A stretch of DNA of 64,000 bases from an uncultured Dokdonia sp. (GTDB lineage: Bacteria > Bacteroidota > Bacteroidia > Flavobacteriales > Flavobacteriaceae): NCBI RefSeq assembly GCF_947492535.1, contig NZ_CANLNH010000003.1:62001-126000 (forward strand). Reading direction: 5' to 3'. The position numbers and the translations under genes are program-made. Below are positions 32,688 to 63,422 of the stretch, piece by piece (position 1 is the stretch's first letter; every line of letters starts with the position of its first letter). The notes under the pieces are model-generated. The model did no database searches. It was not told where the DNA came from and worked only from the letters and a program-made list of their open reading frames with translations.

Positions 32688-34772
32688 ATGAAAATAACTA
32701 ATATAAAAATTACCAATTTCAGGCTTCTAGAAGATATTTATTTAAGTGTTGAAGATGATATAACTTTAATTATTGGCCGTAACAATAGCGGTAAAACTTC
32801 GTTCTTTGAAGCGATTAAAATGTTCACAGGAAAGAGTGAAGAAGACATATCTTTTGAAGATTTTTCACAAAGCTGTTATTTGAAATTTAGAGAGATATTA
32901 GCTTTATATGAAAGCATGTCTACAGAGGGAGTGAATGAAGAAGAAAAGGAGAAAATTGAAGAAGAAATTATACAGAATACACCTGCTATTAGTTTGCAAA
33001 TTGAAATTGAATATGATAAAAAAGTTGATTCAATAGTTAATTTAAGTCAATTTATAACAGATTTAGATCCTGATAGAAATGATGCAATTATTCAGATTAT
33101 TTATTCTCCCAAAAATACTTTAGGAATGTTTAAGTCCTATATAAATAGAGAGGATAGCACTGAAGAGTTAATCCCTTTTTTACATAAAAATATAAAAGAA
33201 TACTATCAATTAAGATGCTATGCTCTAGATACAATCAATAACTCAAATTACAAGAGAGAGATTGAAGGTAATTATAGAGATAAAATCAAGAGAGTAGTTT
33301 CGTTTGAAGACATTAAAGCTTTACGCATTTTAGATGATAAAAAAGGAGATAGAAATAACACTCTTGCTCTTGGTTTTTCGAATTATTATAATCAAAGAGA
33401 TGAAGCATCTGAAGATGTACTTGATTTAGAAAAAGTATTAACGGAAGTAGAAGAAACTTTAAAGGGAAAATATAAAATTGTCCTTGCTAAAATCATTAAA
33501 AGTTTAAAAAAATTCGGAGCAAACACTCCAATTACTATTCCAGATATTAATATTGATTCTAGTTTTAATTCAGAAGATGTAATAAAAAGGAACATTAAAT
33601 ATTTTTATAAACAAGATGAAATAGATCTACCAGAAAGTTATAATGGGCTTGGTTACAGTAATCTGATATATATGATTTTGGAATTAGCCAGTTTTGTTGA
33701 AAAGTTTAAAAACGCAAAAAAAGAAAAATTATCTGAGTTCCTAACGGTTTTAATCGAAGAGCCAGAGGCTCATATGCATCCCCAAATGCAACAAGTATTT
33801 ATTAGTAATGTAAATGGAATTTTAGAGGAAGCTCGAAAAGAAGGAGTTAGCGTACAATTAATACTAACAACACATTCATCACATGTGATTTCAGAAGCAG
33901 GAATGGATAATGATAAGGGATTCAATAGAATTAGATATTTTAACAGAAAAGATAATAAAATTATTGCTCAAGATTTTAATGAATTAAAAATAATTGATGA
34001 CAAGAAAACATTTAGATTCTTAAAACAATATTTGACTCTTCATAAATGCGATTTGTTCTTTGCTGATAAAGCTGTTTTGATTGAAGGGGTTACAGAACGA
34101 ATGTTGTTACCGCAAATGATTCAAAAAGTTGCTCCTGATTTGCAAAATGAATATGTAGCTACACTCGAAATTGGAGGAGCGTATACTCATAAATTCTTAG
34201 AACTATTGTCATTCATATCTATAAAAACTTTAATTATTACTGATATTGACTCAAAAGTTGAAGGTGGGGAAAAATGTCCTGTAAACAATGGTGAGAATGA
34301 TGAAGTAACTTCTAATGGAACACTTATTCAATGGCTGCCAAAAATGACAAAAATATCAGATTTAATAACAGCGACTGATGAACAAAAAATTGAAGAACAT
34401 CTTATTAGAGTAGCTTATCAAATTATGGAAGCAGAAGGTGGAGAAACGGGAAGGAGTTTTGAAGAATCATTTATAATTAAAAATAAAGATTTAATTAATG
34501 GTACGACTTCAATTAAAGAAGCAGATGGTAGTATTAAAGATGTAAAAAATAAGAACCAGTTTAGTAAATTTAAGAAAGTTACAACGGAAAATCTAAATGC
34601 AAAGTCAAATTATGATTTAGCTCCAAGTAGTTCTAAATCTAAAACAAATTTCGCATTTGATGTAATGACTTTTGAAGAAGATATTTATGGGAAATGGAGT
34701 GTTCCAAAATATATTAAAGAAGGGTTGGAATGGTTAGCTGGAATGTGTGTGTTTATTCCAAAAGAAAAGTAG
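32688..34772 (+). CDS. gajA: GajA-like OLD-family ATPase-TOPRIM endonuclease (Gabija)
   Basis: 694 residues. An N-terminal ABC/SMC-like ATPase has Walker A GRNNSGKT (residues 30-37), a helical insertion rich in charged residues, then Walker B LIEEPEAHMHP (~355) and the His switch TTHSSHV. A C-terminal TOPRIM nuclease follows: AVLIEGVTERMLLP (first acidic block, ~460) and IITDIDSKVEGG (DxD, ~515). This is the architecture of class 2 OLD nucleases, defined by an adjacent UvrD-like helicase, which is present 3 bases downstream. GajA nicks phage DNA when nucleotide levels fall. It is about 100 residues longer than well-known GajA proteins. GC is visibly lower than in the neighbouring M14 genes, consistent with transfer. 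Confidence 0.88.
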   Translation: MKITNIKITNFRLLEDIYLSVEDDITLIIGRNNSGKTSFFEAIKMFTGKSEEDISFEDFSQSCYLKFREILALYESMSTEGVNEEEKEKIEEEIIQNTPAISLQIEIEYDKKVDSIVNLSQFITDLDPDRNDAIIQIIYSPKNTLGMFKSYINREDSTEELIPFLHKNIKEYYQLRCYALDTINNSNYKREIEGNYRDKIKRVVSFEDIKALRILDDKKGDRNNTLALGFSNYYNQRDEASEDVLDLEKVLTEVEETLKGKYKIVLAKIIKSLKKFGANTPITIPDINIDSSFNSEDVIKRNIKYFYKQDEIDLPESYNGLGYSNLIYMILELASFVEKFKNAKKEKLSEFLTVLIEEPEAHMHPQMQQVFISNVNGILEEARKEGVSVQLILTTHSSHVISEAGMDNDKGFNRIRYFNRKDNKIIAQDFNELKIIDDKKTFRFLKQYLTLHKCDLFFADKAVLIEGVTERMLLPQMIQKVAPDLQNEYVATLEIGGAYTHKFLELLSFISIKTLIITDIDSKVEGGEKCPVNNGENDEVTSNGTLIQWLPKMTKISDLITATDEQKIEEHLIRVAYQIMEAEGGETGRSFEESFIIKNKDLINGTTSIKEADGSIKDVKNKNQFSKFKKVTTENLNAKSNYDLAPSSSKSKTNFAFDVMTFEEDIYGKWSVPKYIKEGLEWLAGMCVFIPKEK

Positions 34773-34775
34773 AAT

Positions 34776-36647
34776 ATGACAGCTATAGAAAACATAATTA
34801 GTTCCATAGAAAATAATAAAAGTTTTGTTCTTGAAGCTGGAGCAGGTTCAGGAAAAACTTATACTTTAATTCAAACAATTAACTATTTAATTGAAAAAGA
34901 AGGACAATCATATAAATATAATGGAGAGCGAATAGTTTGCATTACATATACGAATGTTGCAAAAAATGAAATATTAAACAGGTTAGAAAATAATCCAATT
35001 GTATTAGTATCTACTATTCATGAATTCTTATGGGACAGTATTAAGTTATATCAAAAGCAACTTCAAATTCAATTGTGCCGACTTAATGAAGAAATGTTTA
35101 ATTCTGAAACAGAAAAGATTACAGGAATGTCTGCCAATAAACAAGCTTCTTATAAAAGGAAATATAGTAAAGATTTAAAAGATAGAATTAAAAATATTGA
35201 TGTTCAATATAATGAAACTACTTACCGTAATTTCGAAAAAGGAATTCTACATCATGATGATGTAATTATCCTTGCAAAATATATGTTTCAAGAATACGAA
35301 AAATTGTCTTTAATTTTTCAGAACAAATATCCTTATATATTAATTGATGAATATCAGGATACAGCAGTTGAAACGATTGATACACTAATTAATAGCTTAT
35401 TGAATAAAAATAAAGCAAAAGTTATGCTTGGTTTTTTTGGTGACTCACATCAAAAAATATACGACAACGGTGTAGGGTCACTTGATGACTATATTGGAGA
35501 GGAACCTTATCAATTAAAACTAATACCTAAATCAGAGAATTATCGTTCTTCTATAAAAGTGATTGAGTTTCTTAATAAAATAAGAAATAATATTCAACAA
35601 ACTTTACCAGAAGGAAAGTTAGATATACTAGAAGGAAGTGTTAAATTAATTCATTGCAATGGAAACGTTGAAGATAAAAACGAAAACTATGATAAAATAG
35701 TTAACTATTTATCAAAAAATGGTTGGGATTTTAATGATGGAAAAAAAGCTAAAATACTAATGCTTGCCAATAAAAGAATTGCAGAAATGGGTGGGTTTGG
35801 AAATCTATTTCAATGTTACTATGATTGGTTCTCATTGAGTGTTACAAATAACCTATTTGATAAGGAAGATAGATTTGTGAAATTTGTTTTAGGTTCTTTG
35901 GATAAGAAATTGTCCTTAAATCGCGAAAATGGAATCGAAAACTTATTAACCTACTTTAAGGAAAAGAAATATAATGAGGTAATGAACTTTCTTAGAATTT
36001 ATGGTTTTGAAGATTCTGAAGATGAATCACATTTTTATTTAAAAAAACATTCAGATAAAGAGAGAATATTCAATAAGCTAATAACTTTAGAAGAAAATGC
36101 AAATAATGAAACTATTGGTGCTATGTTGGATTTCGTTTTTGATGAAAAAGTATTAGAAATGCCTAAAAATATTGAGAAGTTTATTAAGAAAATTTCTGTT
36201 GACATTGCAACTATTGAAATTCAAGAAGAGAAGGATAAATTAGAAAAGGACATTATATTTTATAACGCACTAAGAGAAGTTAAATATCAAGAATTTAGAA
36301 ACCTCAATAGTTATACTCAAAAGTTCACTCCATTTACCACAAAGCATGGCACAAAAGGCGACGAATTTAAAAATGTTCTATTTGTAATTGATGATGATCA
36401 TCGATGGTATAAATATCGTGGATTTGATAAAGTTATTTCTCAAGAATTTGGTAGCTATAATAAAAAAGATGAATTTGTACCTTGGAAAGAGAGTAAAAAA
36501 GAATTAATGAATAATCTTTTTTATGTTTGTTGTTCAAGGGCTAAGGAGAATTTGGTTATATTAATGCTGTCGGATACTGGTTCTGGGATGCCTAATTTAA
36601 TCGATTGGTTTGGGAAAGATAACATAGTCAATATACAAGACATATGA
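34776..36647 (+). CDS. gajB: GajB-like UvrD/Rep-family helicase (Gabija)
   Basis: 623 residues. Superfamily 1 helicase motifs are all visible: I AGAGSGKT (residues 21-28), Ia ITYTNVAKNEI, II LIDEYQDT (~190), III FGDSHQKIY, IV ENYRSS, V TKHGTKGDEFKNVLF and VI YVCCSRAKENL. The start is the ATG three bases after the gajA stop, so the two are co-translated. In Gabija the helicase-like subunit is activated by DNA ends or nicks made by GajA and depletes nucleotides. It is somewhat longer than known GajB proteins. The intact motifs argue for an active system. Confidence 0.9.
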   Translation: MTAIENIISSIENNKSFVLEAGAGSGKTYTLIQTINYLIEKEGQSYKYNGERIVCITYTNVAKNEILNRLENNPIVLVSTIHEFLWDSIKLYQKQLQIQLCRLNEEMFNSETEKITGMSANKQASYKRKYSKDLKDRIKNIDVQYNETTYRNFEKGILHHDDVIILAKYMFQEYEKLSLIFQNKYPYILIDEYQDTAVETIDTLINSLLNKNKAKVMLGFFGDSHQKIYDNGVGSLDDYIGEEPYQLKLIPKSENYRSSIKVIEFLNKIRNNIQQTLPEGKLDILEGSVKLIHCNGNVEDKNENYDKIVNYLSKNGWDFNDGKKAKILMLANKRIAEMGGFGNLFQCYYDWFSLSVTNNLFDKEDRFVKFVLGSLDKKLSLNRENGIENLLTYFKEKKYNEVMNFLRIYGFEDSEDESHFYLKKHSDKERIFNKLITLEENANNETIGAMLDFVFDEKVLEMPKNIEKFIKKISVDIATIEIQEEKDKLEKDIIFYNALREVKYQEFRNLNSYTQKFTPFTTKHGTKGDEFKNVLFVIDDDHRWYKYRGFDKVISQEFGSYNKKDEFVPWKESKKELMNNLFYVCCSRAKENLVILMLSDTGSGMPNLIDWFGKDNIVNIQDI

Positions 36648-38480: not shown

Positions 38481-38577
38481 TTTACAGCTTATTCGTTTAG
38501 TATTAAGAAATTAGCAATTTGTAAGTTTTTTCTTTAAAATTATAGTCTTATACTATGTTTTTGGTACTTTCATACCT

Positions 38578-38603
38578 GTAAAAGTGCGTTTTATTCCATT
38601 TTT
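38578..38603 (+). promoter_or_regulatory. shared upstream element, copy 1
   Basis: GTAAAAGTGCG followed by TTCCATTTTT, 78-103 bp upstream of the ATG at 38681. It matches the element at 42520-42547 upstream of the third small-protein gene and is a candidate LytTR-regulator site. Confidence 0.5.
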
Positions 38604-38680: not shown

Positions 38681-39187
38681 ATGAACACGCAATCAACTAC
38701 TACGAATTGTAATCCTGTAATTGTACCTGATGGGTATATTCTTTTAACTAAGGGACCAAATACTCCTAAAAATAATGCAGGTACTTCTAATCCTATTGAA
38801 ATCCAATTTGATAATAACCGTTCTAAAAGACCGTTACCTCCTCTTGTTGAAGCAGATTATACTATAGTGAATAATGGAAACGGTGTGAATACAATTACCA
38901 TTAATGTAAGTGCTATTGTATTTATTAATGTAGAATCTAAAGATTGTATAGAAGAGAATCCAATATTAGTATACTGGAATAACAACTACGCTTCTCCAAT
39001 GTTTTATATCGCGTACAATGCTGCAGAAATGAGATCAAATTCTTTTTATGCTTATGAGGTTAGTTTTGAAATACACCACGGTGCTACTGTGGTTAACCCA
39101 GCGATTCCTGAAATCACTACATTCTTAGTAGATGAAGATCCTATAACATCAAAAGGTACAAAAACAACTGTACAGCCGTCTACGTAA
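38681..39187 (+). CDS. small beta-rich protein of unknown function, paralogue 1
   Basis: 168 residues with no signal peptide or membrane span. N-terminus MNTQSTTTNCNP; middle rich in Asn, Thr and Val strands (NTITINVSAIVFINV; MFYIAYNAAEMRS). It ends FLVDEDPITSKGTKTTVQPST. The last ~16 residues are almost identical to the end of the next gene although the codons differ, so the motif is under protein-level selection. Family not recognised; the look is of an immunoglobulin-like sandwich. It is first in a likely two-gene transcript ending in a strong terminator just before a histidine-kinase gene. Confidence 0.7.
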   Translation: MNTQSTTTNCNPVIVPDGYILLTKGPNTPKNNAGTSNPIEIQFDNNRSKRPLPPLVEADYTIVNNGNGVNTITINVSAIVFINVESKDCIEENPILVYWNNNYASPMFYIAYNAAEMRSNSFYAYEVSFEIHHGATVVNPAIPEITTFLVDEDPITSKGTKTTVQPST

Positions 39188-39246
39188 GAATACACAAATG
39201 ATTTATTAATAACCTACTTAATATATTAACTCAAATTTAATTGACT

Positions 39247-39672
39247 ATGAGCACACAAACAATTTCACCATCTGATTTTACTACAAAGATTGCTTGTACA
39301 GTAAAACCTGGAAGCAAAATACTCAATAGTACCTTAGGAGCGAATAAGGTGACCGAAACACATTTACCAAATCCTTTTAATATATCTGTAAAGAAGGATC
39401 AAAATTTTCCTATTTTTTATTTTTCATTTAATGTATACATAGATGCTAATAATACATCTCCATTAACATTTATGGTAAATAAATCGAGTACAGAGTTTTG
39501 TTTGGAATATGATCATTCCGAAGAAACACCTGACTATGTATATGAATATACTATTACAGCTAGTTATAATTGCAATACACTAGCCGTTAATGATCAGATT
39601 ACATTATATCTTATGGATACAGATCCAATTACGTCTTCAGGAAAGAAGACAACAGTACAGCCATCTACTTAA
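39247..39672 (+). CDS. small beta-rich protein of unknown function, paralogue 2
   Basis: 141 residues from the ATG at 39247; an in-frame TTG at 39241 is less likely. N-terminus MSTQTISPSDFTTK parallels paralogue 1, as does the C-terminus MDTDPITSSGKKTTVQPST. The middle alternates strands (PIFYFSFNVYIDANN; VYEYTITASYNCN). The 5' leaders of both genes are also alike (CTACTTA..TA.ATTA..AACTCAAA), indicating gene duplication. No signal peptide. Function unknown; the shared C-terminal tail could be an assembly or docking motif. Confidence 0.7.
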   Translation: MSTQTISPSDFTTKIACTVKPGSKILNSTLGANKVTETHLPNPFNISVKKDQNFPIFYFSFNVYIDANNTSPLTFMVNKSSTEFCLEYDHSEETPDYVYEYTITASYNCNTLAVNDQITLYLMDTDPITSSGKKTTVQPST

Positions 39673-39696
39673 TAATATCTATTATTTTATATATGA

Positions 39697-39728
39697 AAAG
39701 CAGCGAATAAAAATTCGCTGCTTTTTTT
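39697..39728 (+). terminator. intrinsic terminator after the paralogue pair
   Basis: Stem AAAAGCAGCGAAT / ATTCGCTGCTTTT with a short A-rich loop and a T7 tail, 25 bases after the stop codon. It separates the pair from the histidine-kinase gene. Confidence 0.92.
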
Positions 39729-39740
39729 AGCTCTTTATTT

Positions 39741-39757
39741 TAGTTACATTGTAACTA
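39741..39757. promoter_or_regulatory. TAGTTACA-t-TGTAACTA palindrome before the kinase gene
   Basis: A 17-bp operator-like palindrome, 12 bases upstream of the kinase ATG and just after the terminator. Confidence 0.4.
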
Positions 39758-39768
39758 AAATTCGGGGT

Positions 39769-41517
39769 ATGGTGTATAGATTTGAGATATTTCTAGTGTT
39801 ATTTCTTTGTGTTTTTTCTACAAAACTGTATGCACAAGAAAGAGTTTATAGCGCATTTGAGCAATATGTTGTCAATAGGAGTGATGCTTTAGTACAAGAA
39901 ATTGACTTTAAGAAGGCACAATCCTTTTTTTTAGAGAAAGAATGGGATTCTACTTTATTGTATACAAGTAAGGTCCTCACTTTAGAAAATTCAGATACTG
40001 CACTTACTAATTTTTCTCACTTTTTACGTGGCTATAGTTTTAAACAACAAGGAGTTTTTAATGAAGCTAAAAGTGAATTTTTAAAAATTAAAGAGAATTT
40101 TGATTTTGCGCTTCATGTTCAAATTTTTTTAGGAGAAATTGCATTGGAACAAAGCCTATACAATGAAGCCTTAGAATATTTAAAACGCATCGAAACAGTT
40201 CCTGATGAGAAGTTATTAGGATTACGAAGAAGTAATATTGAGGCAAATATTGGATTGTGTTACTTACACTTAGACGAATACGATAAGGCTGATGCGTACT
40301 TACAAAGGAATTTAGCTTTTTTAGAAGCAGAAAAAGATACTTTAGGATTGATAGGTGCTTATGGGAATCTAGCAACTAATTATGATTATAAAGATTTATT
40401 CGATAAAACGATATTTTATTATCAAAAAGCATATGATTTATCAACGTATACAGATGCATACGCATTAAAAGCAGATGCTTCGTTTAATATGTATCAGATT
40501 GAAAAATATCTTAATAACCCTGAGAAAGCATATCAATATATAGAAGAATTTAATATTGCTAAAGATTCTTTGAATAGTCAAAACGAAGTAGCGAGAGTAC
40601 TTCAATTGGAAAAGCAAATTGTAGTAGAGCAAAAACAAAAAGAAGTAAGTCTCTTAGAAGCAGAAAATAAAGTAAAAGAAGCACAAAAGAATGGGTTGAT
40701 GCTTTCGTCTGTGATCTTACTCTTGTTATTAGGAACGGGTGTTTATTTTTATAGAGAAAAAGTAAAAAGCAATAAAATCATTAGTGCTCAGAAAGAAGAT
40801 CTTGATGAACTCAATGCAACAAAGGATAAATTGTTTTCTATTGTAAGTCATGATTTGCGTTCTTCTGTACATGCCTTAAAATCCAGTAACACTGAACTCG
40901 TAGATAATCTGGAAGCTAAAAACTTAGAGAAAGTAAATACACTTTTACACGCTAATAGTTCGATTGTAAATGGAGCTTATAATCTACTAGATAACTTATT
41001 GAATTGGGCATTGTTACAGACGAAGCAATCGTATTTTGAAGTAGGGGAGTTGCGTTTATTTTTTATTGTAGAACAGGTAGCGCATAATTATAAAGCATTG
41101 TTGCAAGAAAAGAATATTCATTTTGAAAACACGGTCCCTAAAAAGGATAAAGTGTTTGCAGATCAAGAATCGTTAAAAATTATTTTGAGAAATATCATTG
41201 ATAATGCGATCAAATTTTCAAATGCTGAAGGTGCTATTAAGATATATACAGAGCATACAAAAGAAGGCTTTTGTGATTTGGTGATAGAAGATACAGGGTT
41301 AGGAATGAGTGAAGCGACTCGGCAGAATTTATTACAGGAAACCATCGTGACTTCAGAAAAAGAGAATAAAGATATTATAGGTTCTGGTTTAGGAATGCAA
41401 CTCTGTAAGTCTATGATCAAAAAAAATAATGGGACATTCTTTATAGAAAGCACGTTAGGAAAAGGTACAAAAATGATCGTATCTTTATCTAAAATACCTC
41501 CAGATGGATACTATTAA
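39769..41517 (+). CDS. TPR-containing membrane histidine kinase
   Basis: 582 residues. A signal peptide (VLFLCVFSTKLYAQ) leads a periplasmic region of TPR-like repeats (~45-260; ALEYLKRIETVPDE, IGLCYLHLDEYDKADAYL). A coiled coil and one transmembrane helix (SSVILLLLLGTGVYFY, ~315-330) follow, then a HisKA-type dimerisation helix with phospho-acceptor in FSIVSHDLRSS (~365) and an HATPase domain (NIIDNAIKFSNAEG, DTGLGMS, GSGLGMQLCKSM). It phosphorylates the LytTR regulator whose gene overlaps its end by 14 bases. The input signal is unknown; TPR sensors of this type in Bacteroidota are common, but this one is tied to two undescribed small-protein genes. Confidence 0.92.
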   Translation: MVYRFEIFLVLFLCVFSTKLYAQERVYSAFEQYVVNRSDALVQEIDFKKAQSFFLEKEWDSTLLYTSKVLTLENSDTALTNFSHFLRGYSFKQQGVFNEAKSEFLKIKENFDFALHVQIFLGEIALEQSLYNEALEYLKRIETVPDEKLLGLRRSNIEANIGLCYLHLDEYDKADAYLQRNLAFLEAEKDTLGLIGAYGNLATNYDYKDLFDKTIFYYQKAYDLSTYTDAYALKADASFNMYQIEKYLNNPEKAYQYIEEFNIAKDSLNSQNEVARVLQLEKQIVVEQKQKEVSLLEAENKVKEAQKNGLMLSSVILLLLLGTGVYFYREKVKSNKIISAQKEDLDELNATKDKLFSIVSHDLRSSVHALKSSNTELVDNLEAKNLEKVNTLLHANSSIVNGAYNLLDNLLNWALLQTKQSYFEVGELRLFFIVEQVAHNYKALLQEKNIHFENTVPKKDKVFADQESLKIILRNIIDNAIKFSNAEGAIKIYTEHTKEGFCDLVIEDTGLGMSEATRQNLLQETIVTSEKENKDIIGSGLGMQLCKSMIKKNNGTFFIESTLGKGTKMIVSLSKIPPDGYY

Positions 41518-42253
41518 TGTACTTATCATAGAAGATACTCCTGCTCAGAGTGATAGGATTGTAAAGACCCTTGAAGAAAACAATTTTTCGGTGGTAGGTG
41601 TTGCTACTAGTCTCAAAGAAGCATTGTCATTATTTTATGGATCTGGTAAAATAGATATTGTTATTATAGATATTTTTCTAAATGGAGTACCCGATGGGAT
41701 TGCTTTTGCCGAAACCATTAATGCCGTACCGAATGCCTCAAAACCTTTTGTATTTCTCACAAGTTCTACAGATCGTCAGATATTTCAAAGAGCAAAGCTT
41801 ACACAGCCTTTTAGTTACCTCATGAAGCCTTTTAATGAGTTAGAACTACTGTACGCTATAGAAATGGCTGTCGAGAAGTTTTATGCGCAACAGGATGTGT
41901 TTTTAGGAGATGAAGAAGATACAGTGATTAGTGATGAGTATCTTTTTATTAAAAAAGGGAAGTCACTAAAGAAAGTTCGCATTACTGATATCATCTATAT
42001 TGAAGTAGAGGAGAAGTATTGTAATATCATTACCGAAAAAGAAAAGTTTGTGATTCTCATATCACTTACAAAAATTCTAAAGTTATTAGATAATAATAAC
42101 TTCTACCGTACACATAGAAATTATATTGCCAATCTTGAAAAGGTAGAAGAGATAATCTTAGCTGATAACTTGATTATCTTATCAGGAAACCATAAAGTAA
42201 CCCTTAGTGATACCTACAAAGATATCGTAAAGCGTATGCGTACATTACGATAA
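41504..42253 (+). CDS. LytTR-family response regulator
   Basis: 249 residues. The receiver domain has acidic pocket E10/D11, phospho-acceptor D56 (IVIIDIFLNG), the conserved Thr/Ser of FLTSS and Lys of YLMKPF. The C-terminal LytTR DNA-binding domain starts about residue 145 (YLFIKKGKSLKKVRITDI) and contains NNFYRTHRNYIANLE. The ATG lies inside the kinase gene, so the pair is translationally coupled. It is the presumed regulator of the flanking small-protein genes that share an upstream element. Confidence 0.94.
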   Translation: MDTINVLIIEDTPAQSDRIVKTLEENNFSVVGVATSLKEALSLFYGSGKIDIVIIDIFLNGVPDGIAFAETINAVPNASKPFVFLTSSTDRQIFQRAKLTQPFSYLMKPFNELELLYAIEMAVEKFYAQQDVFLGDEEDTVISDEYLFIKKGKSLKKVRITDIIYIEVEEKYCNIITEKEKFVILISLTKILKLLDNNNFYRTHRNYIANLEKVEEIILADNLIILSGNHKVTLSDTYKDIVKRMRTLR

Positions 42254-42620
42254 CTTGTTTCGTTTTTAGCTTATTAGTCGGTAGCTATTAGTCGGTAGTC
42301 TTTAGTTATTTGTGGGGAAACAAAAATTGAATACGATATTTATCTATTCTTCTTATAATTCATTTTTTATGAATTGATTCTTGTCCGTTCGAGTGCAGTC
42401 GAGAACTATTGATTTACTTGTTGCTTTGGACTGAGTATAACCAGACAGACTCACTATAGTGTGAGTTCTTAAATGATGGTTCAGCTATTTTTTCATACCA
42501 TCTTCTTTCTGTTTTATGGGTAAAAAGTAGGGTCTTGTTCCATTTTTCCATTTTTACCCTCTTTTCTTCTGTAGTTTTAATCTAGAAATTAAAAACAAGT
42601 AACCTACTTACTAATTATAG
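42254..42620. other. 367-bp gap with repeats and a regulatory element
   Basis: Holds TTAGTCGGTAG repeated in tandem near 42274-42300, one CTCGA-type dispersed repeat (GTCCGTTCGAGTGCAGTCGA, from 42386; the reverse orientation of those near 27 kb), inverted repeat GGGTAAAAA (42518-42526) / TTTTTACCC (42551-42559), and the shared upstream element. No gene. Confidence 0.55.
42520..42547 (+). promoter_or_regulatory. shared upstream element, copy 2
   Basis: GTAAAAAGTAGGG followed by TTCCATTTTT, ending 79 bp before the ATG at 42627. Same order and nearly the same distance as the copy before 38681. Confidence 0.5.
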
Positions 42621-42929
42621 ATGATTATGGGGGCATATAGATATAAAGTTCATTCGGCGATTTATTCTTGGGACAAGCCAGGATCTTCTACAAGACCAGC
42701 ATGTAATGTTACTGAGATCGTACAAGGGATTCTTGATAAACCTAAAAATAGAGGTGTGATTCCACTTAATGCAGAATTGATTACTGATCCAGCTCCAGGT
42801 TGCGCTAAGACATTTGCCATTATTGTTTCTATAGAAACACCCGATGGTACAAATACGACACGTTTTTGTTCATCTTCAGATGGACCTACTATAAATATTA
42901 ATGATTCAGGAGTAGAGTGTTACTTCTAA
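42621..42929 (+). CDS. small cysteine-containing protein of unknown function
   Basis: 102 residues (100 if the second ATG at 42627 is used, which makes the spacing to the shared upstream element agree better with the gene at 38681). No signal peptide. Four cysteines in two pairs: RPACNV and PGCAKT, then RFCSSS and GVECYF at the C-terminus. Strand-rich (KTFAIIVSIETPDG). Not recognised and without the TVQPST tail of the other two small proteins. It lies downstream of the kinase-regulator pair and shares their putative promoter element. Confidence 0.6.
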   Translation: MIMGAYRYKVHSAIYSWDKPGSSTRPACNVTEIVQGILDKPKNRGVIPLNAELITDPAPGCAKTFAIIVSIETPDGTNTTRFCSSSDGPTININDSGVECYF

Positions 42930-44709: not shown

Positions 44710-45387
44710 TTATTCGGAAGTTATTTTACCGTCTAGTAAATGAATAATTCGCGATCCATAAGCGGCATTACTTTCAGAATGTGTCGCTTGGATAATGGTG
44801 ACACCTTCCTTGTTCAATTCTGAAAATAATTCCATAATTTCTTCTCCTTGTTTTGAATTTAAATTTCCAGTTGGTTCGTCAGCTAGCAGAAGTTTTGGTT
44901 TTGAGATCAGTGCTCTTGCAATACCTACGAGTTGCTGTTGACCACCACTTAATTGTGAAGGGAACAAGTCTTTTTTACCGACGATATTAAACCGATCAAG
45001 CATATCTGCAACCAAAGCTTTACGCTCTGATGACTTTACATTTTTATATAATAAAGGGGTTTCAATATTTTCTAAAACCGTGAGTTCATCAATAAGGTGA
45101 TACGCTTGAAATACAAAACCAATATATTCTTTATAGAGTTTAGTTCTGTTTTTTTCTTTCATACTGTGAACGGGTTCTCCCAGAAAGGTATATCCTCCAC
45201 CTGTAAAATTATCTAACATTCCTATACAATTGAGTAGGGTAGATTTCCCAGAACCAGAGGGACCCATTAAAGAGATAAATTCTCCTTCATTGACTTGTAA
45301 ATCAATCTTATCTAACAAAGTAACTTTATTACTACCTGAATTTACAGTGCGTGATGCTAGGTTTACACTTAAAAGTTTTGTTTTCAT
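44710..45387 (-). CDS. ABC transporter ATP-binding protein (MacB/LolD type)
   Basis: 225 residues. Walker A GPSGSGKST, Q-loop in FVFQAYHLIDELTVLENIETPL, signature LSGGQQQLVGIARAL (Leu where Arg is usual), Walker B LLLADEPTGNL and switch His in QATHSE. The LolD/MacB subclass drives FtsX-like permeases by mechanotransmission. It is the only ATPase for eight permease genes in the same run, so it probably serves several or all of them. Confidence 0.94.
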   Translation of the reverse strand: MKTKLLSVNLASRTVNSGSNKVTLLDKIDLQVNEGEFISLMGPSGSGKSTLLNCIGMLDNFTGGGYTFLGEPVHSMKEKNRTKLYKEYIGFVFQAYHLIDELTVLENIETPLLYKNVKSSERKALVADMLDRFNIVGKKDLFPSQLSGGQQQLVGIARALISKPKLLLADEPTGNLNSKQGEEIMELFSELNKEGVTIIQATHSESNAAYGSRIIHLLDGKITSE

Positions 45388-46169: not shown

Positions 46170-48524
46170 TTATTCTGTTTTTAAACTTTTTGCTGGATTT
46201 GCAATAGCTGCTCTAATTGCCTGAAAACTCACTGTAAACATGGCAATCATAATGGCTAATAGCCCAGCTATAATAAATACCCACCAGTTGATATCTATTC
46301 GGTAAGAATAATCTTGAAGCCAATCTTGTATATAATACCAGGCTATTGGTATGGCAATTACAATAGAGATTAAAACCAACTTCAAAAAGTCTTTAGATAA
46401 TAATTTTACAATAGCTGTAATGCTAGCACCTAATACTTTACGTACCCCAATTTCTTTTCGACGCTTCTCTGCTGTATAAGTAGCCAAACCAAATAGACCT
46501 AAACAGGAAATGAATATCGCAAGAATGGCAAAAATCTGAGATAGTTCTCCTATTAATTGTTCATTTTTAAATTTAGCATCAAAAGCTTCATCTATAAAGG
46601 TATATTCAAATGGATAAGCTGGGTTATGTTTCTTCATGATAGTCTCAATATCAGAAATGGCTTTATCCAAAGGAACACCTTCTTTTGTTTTAATAAACAT
46701 ATGACGTGCGTAGCTTGGGAAATGCATGAATAATACAGGATCGCTGGCTTCATACATATTTCCATATACATAATCTTTAACGACACCAATCACTGTCATT
46801 TCATTTTCTCCTCGGGTAATAATATTTCCTATCGGATCTGTATCTCCCATCATTTTTGCTAGAGATTCAGAAATCATAACATTAGAACTATCAGCCTTAA
46901 CATTCGTACTAAACCCTCTTCCTTCTATAATTTCCATGCCTGTTGTATCAAAGAAACTCTCCGTTACATTTCTAGAAGATATTAAAACATCTTCTGTATC
47001 TGTACCTCCTTTCCAACGATAACCAGAACCATTATTCCCTCCAGATAGGAGTTGAGAATTACATAGAGTAGCGTTTTCAACAGAGCCTGTTCGAATCAAT
47101 TCTTGTTGCACTAAATCAAAATTCGGAATAAAATCGTAGTCTATAGGCATAGATAATAATTGGTCTTTATCTAGACCGAGTTCTCTGCTTTTGGCATGCT
47201 GTATTTGTTGATACACTAAAATGGTTGTAATAATAAAAACAATAGATATTGTAAATTGACCTACAACCAATCCCTTTCGTATAAAAACAGCAGAATTTTC
47301 TGTAATTTTTAGGCCTTTCAATACTTCAACTGGTTTAAAAGAGGATAAATAAAACGCAGGATATAAGCCTGCCAATAATCCACAGGTAATTGCTACGCCT
47401 ATTAATGATATAATATGAAACGGTTGCGATAATCCAAGGGTTAAGTTTTTATCGATAATTTGATTGAACTGTGGTAATAAAATAGCCAATAATATGAGAC
47501 TCACTAAGGTGGCAATAAAAGATAAAATAACAGCTTCAGAAATAAATTGTGCAATCAGTTTTCCTCTACTAGAACCCATCGCTTTACGCACACCCACTTC
47601 ATTGGCACGTCGCTCACTCCTAGCGGTAGATAAATTCATAAAGTTGATACAGGCAATCAATAAAATCACAAAAGCAATAATGATAAATAATCGGATATAA
47701 GAGATACGACCACCAATGATTTTTCCTCCTTCAAATTTGGATCGTAAATGCCAATCTTTTATAGAATGTAAAAAAGCATAGGTATTGCTGTTTTCGTCTT
47801 TTTGTTGTACTAATTGACGCACTTTTGCATCTACAGTAGCAAAGTCTACTTCAGGTGACAATTCAACAAACGTATCTGAGAAATTATTTCCATAATATGA
47901 CATCCAATCTTCTCCTTCTTGATAGCGCTCAAAAGGAGCTACCCAATCAAACGTAAAGGTGATATTTTTTGGTAAATTTTCAATAACTCCAGTGACTGAG
48001 TAATTATCCTTATCATTTATTCTAACAATCTTACCAAGTGCCTTTTCTTCTTTGCCAAAAAGTTGTTCTGCAACTTCCTGAGTTAAAACAATAGCCTCAG
48101 GATTATTGAATGCATTGGATCTATCACCTTCAATAAAATTTAGACTGAATATTTCAAGGAAATCTGGATCTACATAGCGTCCTCGTCTTATAATAGCGTT
48201 ATCTCCAACTGTAAACAAAGATTCTTGTAGGCTAGAGCGTGTGGCTCTTATAATTCCTGGAATTTCATTTTTCATGTCCTGCGCCAGAGGACCTGGCGTA
48301 GAATAGAATGTTCTCCATTCTCCTTCATACTGCTGGTTAGTTGGTACGTAAAATACTTGGTCTTGCTTATCAAAGTTTGTATTAAAACTAAGCTCATCTT
48401 CTACCCAAAGAAAGATTAAACTTGCGCAAGTAATACCTACGGCCAGACCAAAGATATTTAGAAAACTATACCCCTTATGTTTTAATAAGGATCTGATAGC
48501 TATTTTGAAATAATTTTTAAACAT
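46170..48524 (-). CDS. MacB/FtsX-type ABC permease 1 (784 aa)
   Basis: Two MacB_PCD-FtsX units. Each has a transmembrane entry helix (NIFGLAVGITCASLIFLWV; RKGLVVGQFTISIVFIITTI), a periplasmic domain and a three-helix FtsX bundle with the coupling motif (RRANEVGVRKAMGSSRGKLI; KRRKEIGVRKVLGASITAIV). It ends ANPAKSLKTE. It differs from the others by sitting on the ATPase side of a 191-bp gap containing a 16-bp-stem hairpin, so it could be expressed separately from the seven upstream permeases. Confidence 0.92.
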   Translation of the reverse strand: MFKNYFKIAIRSLLKHKGYSFLNIFGLAVGITCASLIFLWVEDELSFNTNFDKQDQVFYVPTNQQYEGEWRTFYSTPGPLAQDMKNEIPGIIRATRSSLQESLFTVGDNAIIRRGRYVDPDFLEIFSLNFIEGDRSNAFNNPEAIVLTQEVAEQLFGKEEKALGKIVRINDKDNYSVTGVIENLPKNITFTFDWVAPFERYQEGEDWMSYYGNNFSDTFVELSPEVDFATVDAKVRQLVQQKDENSNTYAFLHSIKDWHLRSKFEGGKIIGGRISYIRLFIIIAFVILLIACINFMNLSTARSERRANEVGVRKAMGSSRGKLIAQFISEAVILSFIATLVSLILLAILLPQFNQIIDKNLTLGLSQPFHIISLIGVAITCGLLAGLYPAFYLSSFKPVEVLKGLKITENSAVFIRKGLVVGQFTISIVFIITTILVYQQIQHAKSRELGLDKDQLLSMPIDYDFIPNFDLVQQELIRTGSVENATLCNSQLLSGGNNGSGYRWKGGTDTEDVLISSRNVTESFFDTTGMEIIEGRGFSTNVKADSSNVMISESLAKMMGDTDPIGNIITRGENEMTVIGVVKDYVYGNMYEASDPVLFMHFPSYARHMFIKTKEGVPLDKAISDIETIMKKHNPAYPFEYTFIDEAFDAKFKNEQLIGELSQIFAILAIFISCLGLFGLATYTAEKRRKEIGVRKVLGASITAIVKLLSKDFLKLVLISIVIAIPIAWYYIQDWLQDYSYRIDINWWVFIIAGLLAIMIAMFTVSFQAIRAAIANPAKSLKTE

Positions 48525-48642
48525 GAGGTGTTATTTTGGCTACTCGTTTTTTGATTGATGAACTTGACAACTATAAAGTGAAGATTGTGCCAAACATGTA
48601 ATCATCTGTAATTTAATTGTTTAAAAATATCCTTAACTATAA

Positions 48643-48686
48643 AAGTGTTCGATTTTGATACACTTCTTGTTCAAAATCGAACACTT
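48643..48686. promoter_or_regulatory. 16-bp perfect stem-loop between permeases
   Basis: AAGTGTTCGATTTTGA (48643-48658) pairs exactly with 48671-48686 across a 12-base loop. It lies 30 bases after the stop codon of the permease at 48716 on the minus strand and is followed there by TTTTATAG. Possible attenuator or terminator splitting the operon, or an mRNA-processing site. Confidence 0.6.
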
Positions 48687-48715
48687 AAAAAAGGTTCTCT
48701 TTGTAAAAAATAAAT

Positions 48716-51112
48716 TTATTCTGATCGCAACGAATTAATAGGGTTTGCAATAGCCGCTTTAATCGCTTGAAAACTTACGGTAGTTAAGGCAATAAGTACA
48801 ACTACAAACCCTGAAATGGCAAAAGAAAGCCAAGGCATATTGGTTCTATAGGTAAAATAATTAAGCCAACTATCTGCAAAATACCAAGCTATTGGAATTG
48901 CTATAATGATAGCTAACACCACGAGTTTCATAAAATCTCTAGACAGTAAGAGTACGATTTCAGAAATAGAGGCTCCTAGTACTTTTCGAATACCTATCTC
49001 CTTTATACGTTGTTCTGATGCAAAAGTGACCAACCCAAATAGACCCAAACCGGCAATAATTAATGCTAATACAATAAAGACATAAATGATCAATGATAGT
49101 TGCTCTTCTGACTTATAAAGTGCATCAAACGTATCATCCATAAACTCATAAGAAAAAGGAGTTGTGGTATCAAATGTTTTGTAGGTAGTTTCCAGTTGAT
49201 TAATAAGATTTGGGACGGAAGTACCTTCTTTATATTTTACATAGATTTTAGCACTTCCTAAGGTTTCTGGATACAAATTAGAAGTGGCTTTGTCATTTAC
49301 AAAAAACGCAAGAGGTTGAATAGGGCTTTCTAGAGATGTATAATTGAAATCTTTTACAACGCCTGCAATTTCTAATAATTGATTTCCAACACCCAATTTT
49401 TGCCCCCTTGGATCTGGACGTAATCCCATTTCTGAAATGGTTTTTTCATTGATAATGACCTTTCCATTATTGACGAGTGGTTTACGTTCTTTAGGTTCTA
49501 GGTACCAGGACACCCCTAATGTGTTAATGAAATTATCATCTACATTAAATGTGATCAATTGAAAAGATTTGTCTACATCAGGAGCATTGACAAAAAAGAT
49601 AGTATAGGGATCATAAATGGCATATTGAGTTAATGATGTCCCTTGTACACCTGCAATATTCTCCATATTATTTCGTAATGCGGTGGTATTGGTTTGTATG
49701 GTTTTTTCAATAGGAATAATGATAAGATTAGATCTATCCAAGCCTGTGTCTTTACTCTTCATAAAGTCCAATTGAGTACTCATGACAACCCCACAAATAA
49801 TTAGTAATACTGCAATAGAAAATTGAAGTGTAGTAAACACTTTTCGTATGGACCCGCTTCCAGAATTTTTTATGAGCGTGTTTCTAAAATTCTCGATAGG
49901 ATTAAATGAAGATAATACCATTGCAGGATAAATACCCGACACCAATACTGCAAATACAAACAATATAGTGACTGCTATGATAAACTTAAGATTTAAGAAA
50001 AATGCATTATCAATCTCTATTTCTAACAGTTGTAGAAAATAGGGTTTGATTAAAAAACTAATACTAAATCCTATTAGAAATGATATGGTTACAAAAATGG
50101 CAGATTCGATATAAAATTGCATAGCGAGGCTTTTCCGATTGGCACCGCTTATTTTACGCACCCCTACTTCTTTAGAACGTGTACTTGCTTTTGCAGTTGT
50201 TAAACTTATATAATTTGTAAGAGCTAAAAATAGAATTAATAAAGCTACTATAGGAAAAACTTGTAAGTAATCAAATCGTCCCGTATTTGCATTTATAGCA
50301 TAAGATTCTGTAAAAGGTTCTAGAAAGTATGTATTTGTAGATTCTTCAAAACTAGACCTGTCTAATTGTAGCGCAGTAGCTTCGATATCTTTTTTCTGAG
50401 CGAGTGTGTTTAATTTTAAAAATGTGACAAAACTTCCTCCTTGAAATAGAGTTTCCTCTATAAGATCTTTGGTTTTATTCATAGAAGAGAGGCTTGACAT
50501 AGACAGGACTAAATCGGTATCAATAGAGGAATTGGTAGGAAAATCTTTCATTATTCCCGTCACCGTAAATTGATAGGTGCTATCTTGTTTTATGATGATT
50601 TGTTTTCCGATAGGATCTACATTTCCAAAGTATTTTTTGGCAGTTTCACTAGTCAGTACAACAGAGAAAGGAGCTTTTAAAACATCAGATGGATTTCCCT
50701 TTACTAAGTCGAAAGAGAAAAAAGAAAATAGGTTGGCATCTGCTGCAAGAAAATTCTTTTCATAAAAGATTTCACTGCTAGTTTTACTTGTTCTAATTGT
50801 TATAGGGTCACTACTTGTATAATAACGAAAGGAATCATCAATATTTGGTGCTTTTTCTCTTAATTGAGGTCCAACAACAGCACTAAGTCTAGACATACCA
50901 ATGTTATCATTACCTATTTTAAATTTTGCTGTTACTTTGAAAATACGGTCTGCATCTGTATGAAATTGATCATAGGTTTTCTCATGAAAAACATACATAG
51001 TAATCAAAATACAGGCGGCTAAACCTAAGGAAAGTCCCACCAAATTGATAAAACTAGTAAGCTTATTTCTCCAAAAGTTTCTAAACGCTATTTTGAAATA
51101 GTTTTTAATCAT
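48716..51112 (-). CDS. MacB/FtsX-type ABC permease 2 (798 aa)
   Basis: Same two-unit architecture. Coupling motifs are TRSKEVGVRKISGANRKSLA and EQRIKEIGIRKVLGASISEI; the ISGAN form of the first is the most divergent in the set. N-terminus IKNYFKIAFRNFWRNKLTSF, C-terminus ANPINSLRSE. The periplasmic domains are clearly different from permease 1. Its start is preceded by 70 bp holding a genome palindrome. Confidence 0.92.
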   Translation of the reverse strand: MIKNYFKIAFRNFWRNKLTSFINLVGLSLGLAACILITMYVFHEKTYDQFHTDADRIFKVTAKFKIGNDNIGMSRLSAVVGPQLREKAPNIDDSFRYYTSSDPITIRTSKTSSEIFYEKNFLAADANLFSFFSFDLVKGNPSDVLKAPFSVVLTSETAKKYFGNVDPIGKQIIIKQDSTYQFTVTGIMKDFPTNSSIDTDLVLSMSSLSSMNKTKDLIEETLFQGGSFVTFLKLNTLAQKKDIEATALQLDRSSFEESTNTYFLEPFTESYAINANTGRFDYLQVFPIVALLILFLALTNYISLTTAKASTRSKEVGVRKISGANRKSLAMQFYIESAIFVTISFLIGFSISFLIKPYFLQLLEIEIDNAFFLNLKFIIAVTILFVFAVLVSGIYPAMVLSSFNPIENFRNTLIKNSGSGSIRKVFTTLQFSIAVLLIICGVVMSTQLDFMKSKDTGLDRSNLIIIPIEKTIQTNTTALRNNMENIAGVQGTSLTQYAIYDPYTIFFVNAPDVDKSFQLITFNVDDNFINTLGVSWYLEPKERKPLVNNGKVIINEKTISEMGLRPDPRGQKLGVGNQLLEIAGVVKDFNYTSLESPIQPLAFFVNDKATSNLYPETLGSAKIYVKYKEGTSVPNLINQLETTYKTFDTTTPFSYEFMDDTFDALYKSEEQLSLIIYVFIVLALIIAGLGLFGLVTFASEQRIKEIGIRKVLGASISEIVLLLSRDFMKLVVLAIIIAIPIAWYFADSWLNYFTYRTNMPWLSFAISGFVVVLIALTTVSFQAIKAAIANPINSLRSE

Positions 51113-51129
51113 GTTTCTTAGTTTTATGT

Positions 51130-51151
51130 ATACGCTTTCGCGAAAGCGTAT
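51130..51151. repeat. 22-bp genome palindrome between permease genes
   Basis: CGCTTTCGCGAAAGCG core extended symmetrically by ATA/TAT... to 22 bases (ATACG...CGTAT), in the 70-bp gap between two permease genes. Confidence 0.9.
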
Positions 51152-51182
51152 TATTCATTATTTGAAGTGTTACTGATTCATT

Positions 51183-53582
51183 TTATTCTGACCGTAGTGA
51201 ATTAATAGGATTTGCTATGGCTGCTTTAATAGCTTGAAAACTTACGGTTATCATTGTAATTATAATGGCGCCGAATCCAGCAATCAAGAATACTCGTATC
51301 GAAATGTCTGTGCGATAAGAGAACTTCTCAATCCAGTCACTCATAAAATAGTAGGCGAGTGGTGCTGCTAGCAGTAACGCGATGGTGACAAGAATGATAA
51401 AATCTTTTGAAAGCAGCATCCAGAGGTTGGTAACTGTTGCCCCTAATACTTTACGCACTCCTATTTCTTTAGTGCGCTGTTCTGCAACAAAAGATGTGAG
51501 TCCAAATAACCCTAAACAGCTTATGAGAATAGCGAGTAATGTAAATATACTAGAAAGACTTGCAATACGTTCTTCGGCAATATAGTTTTGAGCATATTCC
51601 TCATCTACAAAGTCGTAGTTGAATGGAAGGTTAGGGAAATTAGCTTTATATATGTTTTCGATAGTGGCAAGACTTTCACTAGTTGCTTTATCTGGGTCGA
51701 GTCTTAAATAATAGAACCCGCCATAGCCGCTACCGAACATATACATTTGAGGAGATACTGGCTCGTAAGCCGATTCATTAATCACGTCTTCTACGACCCC
51801 TACAATTTGCATAGGCACACTGTTAGGTCCAGGCTCTGCATCTCGAATATATTTCCCAACGGGATTTTGAATTCCCATATAGGCTACCGCAGTTTTGTTG
51901 AGAATAACAGCAGTAGAATCTGTCGTAAACTCTCTAGAAAAAGAACGCCCCTCAATAATTTTCATATCTAGGGCATCAATATAATCATAAGAAACCCCCA
52001 TTTGTGCAAGGCTCTCGTTAAAACCTAGAGGTTTTCCGTCCCATTCAAACCCTGATGAATAATTCCATATACGTGTAGAAGGACTGCTTCCCCAAGCCAT
52101 TTCAGTAACAGCACCTGAGTTTATAAACTGATTGCGCATTACTTCATATTTATTTTGAAATTCATGGCTGGATGTTGGTATTTGAACAAGTTGTGTACTA
52201 TCAAAACCTACTGGTCTATTCTTACTGTAATCTATTTGATTTTTTACAATGAGTGTTCCGATGATCAATGCAATAGATACTGTAAATTGAGTCACGACTA
52301 ACACTTTTCGCGGAAGCGAAGCATTTTTCCCCATCTTAAAAGTTCCCTTGAGTACTTTAATAGGTTTGAACGATGATAAAAACAAGGCTGGATAACTTCC
52401 AGAGACTAATGCTGTGAGTATAATAAAGACTATTGAAATTCCCCAGAATACTGGGCTAATCCAAGGAAAAACAACTTCTTTTCCTGCTAATGTATTAAAA
52501 GAGTTAATGGAAAGTAAAACCAGCCCAATAGAAATCACATATGCTAGTAGGACAACCAGAAATGACTCACTTAAAAACTGATGAATGAGTTGTCCGCGTG
52601 TTGAACCTATAGATTTTCTTATGCCTACTTCGAGTGCTCGTTTTTCAGATCGGGCAGTACTCAAATTCATAAAATTTATGCTTGCAAGGATGAGTACAAA
52701 AAGACCAATAAGGCCAAACAACCAAACGTTATCAATACGACCTCCAGTTTGCACCCCATTTTCAAATTGAGAATATAAGTACCAATCTGTCATTGGAAAT
52801 ACAAACAATCGTGGGTCAAACTTATCACCTCGTGGATCATTATCTTTTTTTACATTTTCAATACGAGCATTTACAGTTGCGAGATCGACGTTTTCTGATA
52901 ACGCTACAAAGAGGTCAAAAGAATTATAATCCCAGTTTGTATCTTGATTTTCTAACCAGCCCCATCTCGTGTTCATCCAGTGTTTGAATGGCATTATGAA
53001 TTGTAGGTTTGAAAAACTATTATTGCTAGGGATATCTTTGTAAACTCCTGTTACTTCCATGGTGTGTTCATTATTTGACACCACCGATTTACCTATGGGA
53101 CTTTGATCACCAAACATTGTTTTTGCTGTAGACTCAGAAAGTAAAATGGAGTTTGTTTTTTTTAATCCATTACGGGTTCCTTCTATCATTTCTAGACTTA
53201 AAAGATCTGGAGCATCTGCTTGCATAAAGCGACCTCTACTAGAAATCACTTCATTATCTACCGAAAGAAAGCGTCCGTTATTACGAGACGACATTACGAT
53301 ATGTGTAAAGGCATCTCCAAATTGATCTCGCAATTGAAACTCTAGCGCAAGAGGAATGGTTTCATTAGAGTGTACTTCACCATTAACTGTTTGGTGTTGC
53401 ATGATGCGAGCGATGCGATCTTTGTTTTCAAAGTGATTATCGTAATCAAACTCATCAGCTATCCATAGACCAATAATCATTGTTACAGCAAGCCCTAGTG
53501 CGAGACCAACAATATTGATAAATGAGTATACCTTATTTTTCTTAAGGCTTCTCCAAGCTATTTTTAGATTGTTCTTGAACAT
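51183..53582 (-). CDS. MacB/FtsX-type ABC permease 3 (799 aa)
   Basis: Two-unit permease, closest to the one at 60962-63361: same length, shared GVQTGGRIDNVWLFGLIG, SLPRKVLVVTQFTVSIALIIG and VEQ/AEQRTKEIGVRKVLGA blocks. This indicates a more recent duplication within the array. First coupling motif KRALEVGIRKSIGSTRGQLI, C-terminus ANPINSLRSE. Gap to the upstream permease is 28 bp. Confidence 0.92.
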   Translation of the reverse strand: MFKNNLKIAWRSLKKNKVYSFINIVGLALGLAVTMIIGLWIADEFDYDNHFENKDRIARIMQHQTVNGEVHSNETIPLALEFQLRDQFGDAFTHIVMSSRNNGRFLSVDNEVISSRGRFMQADAPDLLSLEMIEGTRNGLKKTNSILLSESTAKTMFGDQSPIGKSVVSNNEHTMEVTGVYKDIPSNNSFSNLQFIMPFKHWMNTRWGWLENQDTNWDYNSFDLFVALSENVDLATVNARIENVKKDNDPRGDKFDPRLFVFPMTDWYLYSQFENGVQTGGRIDNVWLFGLIGLFVLILASINFMNLSTARSEKRALEVGIRKSIGSTRGQLIHQFLSESFLVVLLAYVISIGLVLLSINSFNTLAGKEVVFPWISPVFWGISIVFIILTALVSGSYPALFLSSFKPIKVLKGTFKMGKNASLPRKVLVVTQFTVSIALIIGTLIVKNQIDYSKNRPVGFDSTQLVQIPTSSHEFQNKYEVMRNQFINSGAVTEMAWGSSPSTRIWNYSSGFEWDGKPLGFNESLAQMGVSYDYIDALDMKIIEGRSFSREFTTDSTAVILNKTAVAYMGIQNPVGKYIRDAEPGPNSVPMQIVGVVEDVINESAYEPVSPQMYMFGSGYGGFYYLRLDPDKATSESLATIENIYKANFPNLPFNYDFVDEEYAQNYIAEERIASLSSIFTLLAILISCLGLFGLTSFVAEQRTKEIGVRKVLGATVTNLWMLLSKDFIILVTIALLLAAPLAYYFMSDWIEKFSYRTDISIRVFLIAGFGAIIITMITVSFQAIKAAIANPINSLRSE

Positions 53583-53610
53583 AACGATTTGATTTCTGAT
53601 TGATTAATAC

Positions 53611-56019: not shown

Positions 56020-56042
56020 GATCGTTTACTTTTTGATTGTGA

Positions 56043-58490: not shown

Positions 58491-58521
58491 GATGATTTGA
58501 TTTTGATTGATTAGTTAATGC

Positions 58522-60936: not shown

Positions 60937-60961
60937 GGTTGTTCTTTTTATTGATTAATGC

Positions 60962-63361: not shown

Positions 63362-63422
63362 GATTGAAAAGAATTACTGTTCGTTTTTGATTGTTTGCTA
63401 GACGCTAGTATTGATTGATGAC

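Follow-up and report, generated by a model that had tools for sequence, protein, structure and literature searches.

The window, a 64,000-nucleotide stretch of the 4.86-Mb genome of an uncultured Dokdonia species, carries on its + strand a row of five genes: small proteins A and B, a TPR sensor histidine kinase, a REC-LytTR response regulator, and a further small protein, C (Table 1). The ORF list begins B at a TTG (39241); the ATG start is used here. The kinase has TPR_12 (4.9e-9) and HATPase_c (1.2e-16) domains, and the regulator has Response_reg (1.4e-15) and LytTR (1.5e-18) domains; the dedicated kinase-regulator pair that a preliminary description had placed after A and B was confirmed, as were the positions it gave for all five genes. 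A Gabija-type defence pair lies 5′ of the cassette (window 32688-36647; GajA, 4.6e-176, and GajB, 1.3e-151, in PADLOC). On the other side, an ABC ATPase-like ORF at 44710-45387 is followed by a series of seven or more similar ORFs, each about 780-815 aa long and on the - strand (46170-63992), which we take to resemble MacB/FtsX-type permeases.

Table 1. Features of the cassette and of related loci. Positions without a locus name are those of the window.
Feature	Position	Strand	Remarks
Small protein A	38681-39187	+	168 aa; no signal-peptide-like N-terminus; conserved C-terminal tail; homologues directly 5′ of the same kinase in relatives
Small protein B	39247-39672	+	141 aa from ATG; paralogue of A, tail as in A
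TPR sensor histidine kinase	39769-41517	+	582 aa; signal-like N-terminus, TPR region, transmembrane segment, H-box, HATPase
REC-LytTR response regulator	41504-42253	+	249 aa; phosphoacceptor Asp56; start overlaps kinase end
C	42621-42929	+	102 aa, four Cys; predicted target gene
Candidate LytTR site 5′ of A	38546-38597	+	Repeats 38546-38554, 38568-38576, 38589-38597; spacings 22 and 21
Candidate LytTR site 5′ of C	42491-42541	+	Repeats at 42491, 42512, 42533; spacing exactly 21 bp
Hydrophobic peptide	L026:3807-3944		Repeats before peptide clear
Hydrophobic peptide	L030:9757-9927		Repeats before peptide clear
Hydrophobic peptide	L031:3866-4039		Repeats before peptide weak
Hydrophobic peptide	L032:4315-4479		Repeats before peptide clear
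Hydrophobic peptide	L033:3625-3789		Repeats before peptide clear
Hydrophobic peptide	L036:9452-9613		Repeats before peptide weak
DUF805/DUF805b RNA motif	L037:4138-4206		Leader of PixA; above threshold
DUF805/DUF805b RNA motif	L075:4678-4747		Leader of DUF1842; above threshold
DUF805/DUF805b RNA motif	L076:6205-6237		Leader of gene after regulator; above threshold

A and B match each other within their own genome (E 1.6e-6, 41% over residues 100-168). Their C-terminal tails, DPITSKGTKTTVQPST and DPITSSGKKTTVQPST, are identical at 14 of 16 residues, and 9 of the 14 common residues are encoded by different codons (pS 0.77, pN 0.09), which supports the original proposal of selection at the protein level. 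The leaders are alike too, as had been claimed, with CTACTTA about 30 nt before each ATG. The preliminary description had recognised no family for the small proteins, and no known family was matched: A, B, and C scored no better than noise against Pfam, PHROGs, NCBIfam, and PADLOC. A wider sample of 19 A-family members gave a best Pfam match of only E 0.014, in one member; the A-family profile found nothing in the PDB up to E 5, and the family member from locus L031 nothing on plasmids. On these comparisons, A/B is a small-protein family that does not match any known one.

Searching with A gave 18 places in 15 of 299 family genomes; L014-L016, with internal stops and no tail, were left out before counting, and 13 places in 11 genomes then stood besides A and B themselves. 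Of 28 A-like genes, 16 were used to build a profile. Among 395 class genomes, profile matches occurred in at least four, all in the same family, with three new places; at most nine first-look candidates per genome were scored, so that 4/395 is a lower bound. Among 39 relatives, five matched, all within the genus of the window (18 genus genomes searched). Every one of the 18 mapped loci found via A, B, or the profile (16 from the searches plus L020 from Dokdonia pacifica DSM 25597 and L019 from a Dokdonia MAG) contained the small gene, the kinase, and the regulator. The regulator as query gave 23 matches at E <= 1e-50 in 21 of the 299 family genomes, each with a kinase and a small ORF before it, the latter A-like in 21; 14 were the window and loci already known, and nine were new. 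A second mapping, of these nine and two Dokdonia loci, again found linkage to the kinase-regulator pair in 11/11. Loss of this linkage in relatives had been named at the outset as a reason to doubt the set, and no such loss was seen. The window and the mapped loci make up a set of 30 Flavobacteriaceae loci, all of which keep the order small ORF, TPR kinase, LytTR regulator; a companion gene stands beside the pair in all mapped loci. It is recognised as A-like, by sequence or profile search, in 28 of the 30.

The small protein is the most variable member of the cassette, with mean identities over the 23 closer loci of 0.295, compared with 0.479 for the TPR region, 0.642 for the catalytic region, and 0.708 for the regulator. 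Within it, conservation of the tail is double that of the body (0.52 vs 0.26): the pattern [DN]Pxx[STD][RKS]G is found in 28/30 loci and RGT in 25/30, counting the kinase-adjacent copy in the window, L019, and L020, which have the duplicated pair A and B. The two small ORFs that escape the A-family profile, those of L075 and L078, lack the full tail. A signal-peptide-like N-terminus is absent from A/B in all 30 loci. The H-box of the kinase and the phosphoacceptor Asp of the regulator are present throughout (30/30). The kinase has a hydrophobic N-terminus in 26 loci and a transmembrane segment in 28, and its TPR region should be periplasmic. The five cassette-bearing Dokdonia genomes (G000, G691, G695, G697, and G698) are the largest of the 18 genus members listed (4.3-5.5 Mb vs 2.6-3.6 Mb).

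Three 9-bp direct repeats (about TTTYATNCC), 21-22 bp apart, are found 5′ of A and again 5′ of C. The upstream regions of A and C share blocks in five Dokdonia loci, and the element differs from the CTACTTA leader and lies further upstream. LytTR repeats are described, in the available part of one account, as 9 bp long with mostly 12 bp between them (PMC6193735); we read the triple repeats as candidate LytTR sites because their 21-bp spacing is that of LytTR sites. A matrix was trained on nine repeats taken from the A upstreams of the five Dokdonia loci, with 311 other ORF upstreams as controls. In the window, the site 5′ of A, which was part of the training set, scored 27.2 (shuffles, 7.2 ± 3.4), and the site 5′ of C, which took no part in the training, scored 26.5 against a 99% control level of 12.5. 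That level was exceeded by the C upstreams in 5/5 Dokdonia loci (rank test p 8e-11), by 7/25 A upstreams outside Dokdonia (p 8e-7), and by 4/10 upstreams of other predicted targets (p 0.03). None of the test sets entered the training, but the C and target upstreams had already been inspected when the repeat register was fixed.

The repeats could be chance, or a general promoter feature of AT-rich genomes unconnected with the regulator. The prior acquaintance with the C and target upstreams would fit this, as would the 18/25 held-out A upstreams and 6/10 other targets, distant loci L078-L083 included, that fell below the control level. Set against it are the 5/5 result for C, obtained with real upstreams as well as shuffles for controls, and the outcome of scanning spacings from 12 to 31 bp, where each of the three test sets peaked sharply at 21 bp and nowhere else. 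When 465,749 bases from the loci examined were searched for repeat triplets with a spacing of exactly 21 bp, 25 matches scored above 16. By comparison with the gene maps, 22 of these lie at the cassette, upstream of A or in the gap that separates the regulator from the gene after it; merging them and setting aside the three training places leaves 16 separate places, 13 of them before targets. The other three lie elsewhere (L138, L040, and L075), as chance would allow. A composite pattern drawn up from the sites of A and C themselves had exact matches in the window's genome only at those two; ten more places had two mismatches, and the four examined among them overlap ORFs. In G695 it was exact at C and at the first A copy, with two one-mismatch matches at or inside ORFs. 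A reversed control pattern gave none in the window's genome and up to six in the other four Dokdonia genomes. We regard this alternative as very improbable.

C follows the regulator in 5/5 cassette-bearing Dokdonia loci, with 62-97% identity to the four others and dN/dS values of 0.055 (vs L020), 0.055 (vs L019), and 0.22 (vs L085). Among the 299 family genomes, C found only three weak matches besides its own, and no match was found on plasmids. The preliminary description had listed a third small cysteine protein alongside A and B; the gene is indeed there, with its four Cys, but it does not group with the A/B proteins (hhalign probability 0.7, scale 0-100) and is better read as a predicted target gene than as a third paralogue.

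The gene after the regulator varies by lineage while A, the kinase, and the regulator stay. It encodes PixA in L037 (5.6e-46) and RhiA in L028, the latter 48-53% identical to Rhizobium plasmid genes among the matches listed (45 records in all); L027 and L035 have the same RhiA gene by sequence. DUF1842 is the second gene in L039 and L075, a MACPF protein the second in L041, where no repeat site was found before the run, and a C58-peptidase-like protein the third in L040. A small protein common to L037 and L039 gave the one strong match of the profile comparisons, to the C-terminal part of the L075 DUF1842 protein, to which it is fused there. Six loci that had seemed to be without a target (L026, L030-L033, and L036) hold, after the regulator, a 45-57-aa peptide with one hydrophobic segment, absent from the ORF lists because of their 60-aa limit. 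The peptides have a C-terminal motif in common, and in five loci aligned a hairpin and T run follow the gene; three peptides scanned against Pfam gave no convincing match. The A-trained matrix found repeats in some relatives before PixA, RhiA, the DUF1842 cluster, and the peptide; site calls in L040 and L029 depend on a matrix retrained on target sites. Beside distant loci, the opposite strand carries HBL-like (L080), MACPF and subtilase (L083), and glycosyltransferase-like (L079) genes; since L080 and L079 showed no site, we do not count these genes as targets. In other genomes, some neighbours of the cassette resemble pore formers; C matches nothing. As far as the first 20-25 residues show, the predicted targets have no signal-peptide-like N-terminus.

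PixA, DUF1842, and RhiA were not found in the window's own genome. A search for RhiA in this and 13 cassette-free genomes, run without a positive control, gave 0/14. PixA occurs in 3/299 genomes (one weakly) and DUF1842 in 2/299, the strong cases (G019, G127, and G277) being cassette carriers, an enrichment on which we do not lean since the families were picked after being seen beside cassettes. About 200 kb from the cassette of G127, locus L138 (G127:C21:386000-401000) has two PixA genes, one DUF1842 gene preceded by weak repeats (12.6), and one DUF805 RNA. Kinship of A/B with PixA, RhiA, DUF1842, or C was unsupported in profile comparison; A, B, and C had no profile match to PixA/AidA (PF12306), and the hhalign probability for the A family against PixA was 0.1 (0-100 scale). 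DUF805/DUF805b RNA motifs (RF03081, RF02914) precede three genes in relatives (Table 1) and are sub-threshold in the RhiA leaders of L027, L028, and L035. They were ruled out as part of the cassette, given that the own genome had no RF03081 match and carriers showed no enrichment (7/21 vs 7/29), and they may add a post-transcriptional layer on PixA/RhiA/DUF1842-class genes.

In the available parts of the sources, PixA/AidA genes are the most regulated genes in Burkholderia cenocepacia quorum-sensing mutants (PMC9060813), DUF1842 genes are quorum regulated in Chromobacterium (PMC12114271) and rise strongly during the stationary phase of B. thailandensis (PMC12322963), and rhiABC is induced by RhiR (PMC5977203). 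This control elsewhere suggests a role related to cell density for the cassette. No evidence speaks specifically for the structural-assembly or stress functions first considered for the set; the antibacterial function proposed with them is conceivable in view of the pore-former-like neighbours in other genomes, although C itself has no match.

We propose the following circuit. The TPR kinase would sense a signal and phosphorylate the LytTR regulator, which would bind the triple repeats about 21 bp apart 5′ of its own operon (A-B-kinase-regulator) and those 5′ of a neighbouring target, namely, C in Dokdonia and other small proteins without signal peptides in relatives; we infer activation over repression. 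A/B would be an invariant part of the signalling unit, not an exchangeable target, most likely as the sensor's own ligand or as a feedback protein acting on it, and the tail would be the part of A/B that matters. That the cassette is autoregulated with C as a target is, we believe, very probable. The whole account, with local targets and A/B as a signalling companion, we favour on balance and with less assurance.

Whether A/B belongs to the signalling machinery rather than to its cargo is, in our estimate, an even call. A/B could instead be the main effectors, cytosolic or released, with dedicated regulators in the same operon, the tail serving as an assembly, docking, or sorting motif and C and its equivalents being further effectors. 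Several features suit such a role: A/B and the predicted targets alike are without a signal-peptide-like N-terminus, the window, L019, and L020 each hold the A/B gene in duplicate, the A promoter has the same repeats as C, and conservation is highest in the tail. One would expect an effector gene to be found apart from its regulators on occasion, but no such A gene was seen in 299 family or 395 class genomes, and the A family stays in 28/30 loci while other neighbours change between lineages. We consider the effector role rather unlikely.

If A/B is a signalling companion, the TPR region is a conceivable partner. Distances among A proteins track those of the TPR region beyond the kinase and regulator (partial Mantel 0.44 for 30 loci and 0.57 for 23 loci, p 0.001), and equally so against equally variable kinase and regulator columns in a rate-matched control. 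With the upstream Dokdonia copies, A correlates with the TPR region (0.41-0.47, p 0.001-0.022) but also with kinase and regulator taken together (0.25-0.44, p 0.009-0.079). Here the A data can no longer tell the TPR tree from the kinase tree (p-AU of the kinase tree, 0.18), and, judged by the TPR data, the kinase tree is 181 log units better than the A tree. In the other tree comparison, the TPR tree itself is rejected by the A data (p-AU 0.002). Because the tree results change with the Dokdonia copy used, the covariation is only a hint. The conserved tail counts against a ligand role, since the signal in signal-receptor pairs is expected to vary. A further difficulty is the topology: A/B has no signal-like N-terminus, whereas the TPR region is presumably periplasmic. 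We hold the ligand reading only tentatively and lean somewhat against it.

A/B could also be a feedback or adaptor protein of the cytosol whose partner is the kinase core or the regulator instead of the TPR sensor: it is predicted to be cytosolic, its gene order fits co-transcription with kinase and regulator, and the covariation with kinase plus regulator seen for the upstream Dokdonia copies agrees with it. With kinase-adjacent copies, however, A showed no relation to the catalytic region once the regulator was controlled for (partial Mantel 0.02, p 0.41, and -0.02, p 0.54), and we rate this alternative as decidedly unlikely. As the most far-reaching version of the ligand reading, the A/B protein or a tail peptide would be a self-made signal read by the periplasmic TPR domain, an agr-like autoinduction in Bacteroidota. 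Without a signal peptide, A/B could signal via kin lysis or an unfamiliar export route; no export or processing gene was recognised by eye among the ORFs mapped beside the cassette. We regard a self-made signal as unlikely.

In the cassette, a small-protein family has a fixed genetic partner together with a predicted regulator site and predicted target genes, so that its function is directly testable. It also links PixA/AidA, RhiA, and DUF1842, poorly understood families that recur in quorum-sensing regulons, to a two-component circuit, and its target position led to the hydrophobic peptides overlooked in six loci. To our knowledge, Bacteroidota have no well-established encoded cell-cell signal; were A/B a self-made one, it would have beside it the same families that stand under acyl-homoserine lactones in Proteobacteria. 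In the full-text literature, a scope outside which most subscription papers fall, we found no description of the A/B family, its pairing with the kinase, the triple site, or the target set, and nothing on the DUF805 RNA or on RhiA together with AidA in quorum sensing.

Among known systems, the FimS-type TPR kinases of Bacteroidota are the nearest to the cassette kinase, whose best NCBIfam match is HK_Porph_FimS (NF053520, 2.8e-47). The match falls short of FimS membership, reaching 161 bits against a curated cut-off of 600. FimS pairs with a different type of regulator. Unlike agr-like peptide quorum sensing, the cassette has no identified exported peptide or processing gene, and its A/B proteins have no signal-like N-terminus in any of the 30 loci. 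The PixA/AidA, RhiA, and DUF1842 families, under quorum control in Proteobacteria in the parts of the sources available, have members just 3′ of the cassette in relatives, whereas A/B and C are not members of them. Two-component systems with LytTR output and repeat-mediated autoregulation are already known, and here an H-box/HATPase kinase adjoins a receiver-LytTR regulator with a phosphoacceptor Asp, with repeats at LytTR spacing 5′ of both the operon and the target in the window (and before only 7/25 held-out A genes). With the AgrA-type circuits and the Streptococcus mutans LytTR Regulatory Systems, as the accessible portions of two reports present them (PMC6193735, PMC4227749), the cassette shares the LytTR output and, 5′ of both its operon and its targets, 9-bp repeats separated by 12 bp; it differs from them in having three repeats, not two, a TPR kinase, and the A/B companion.
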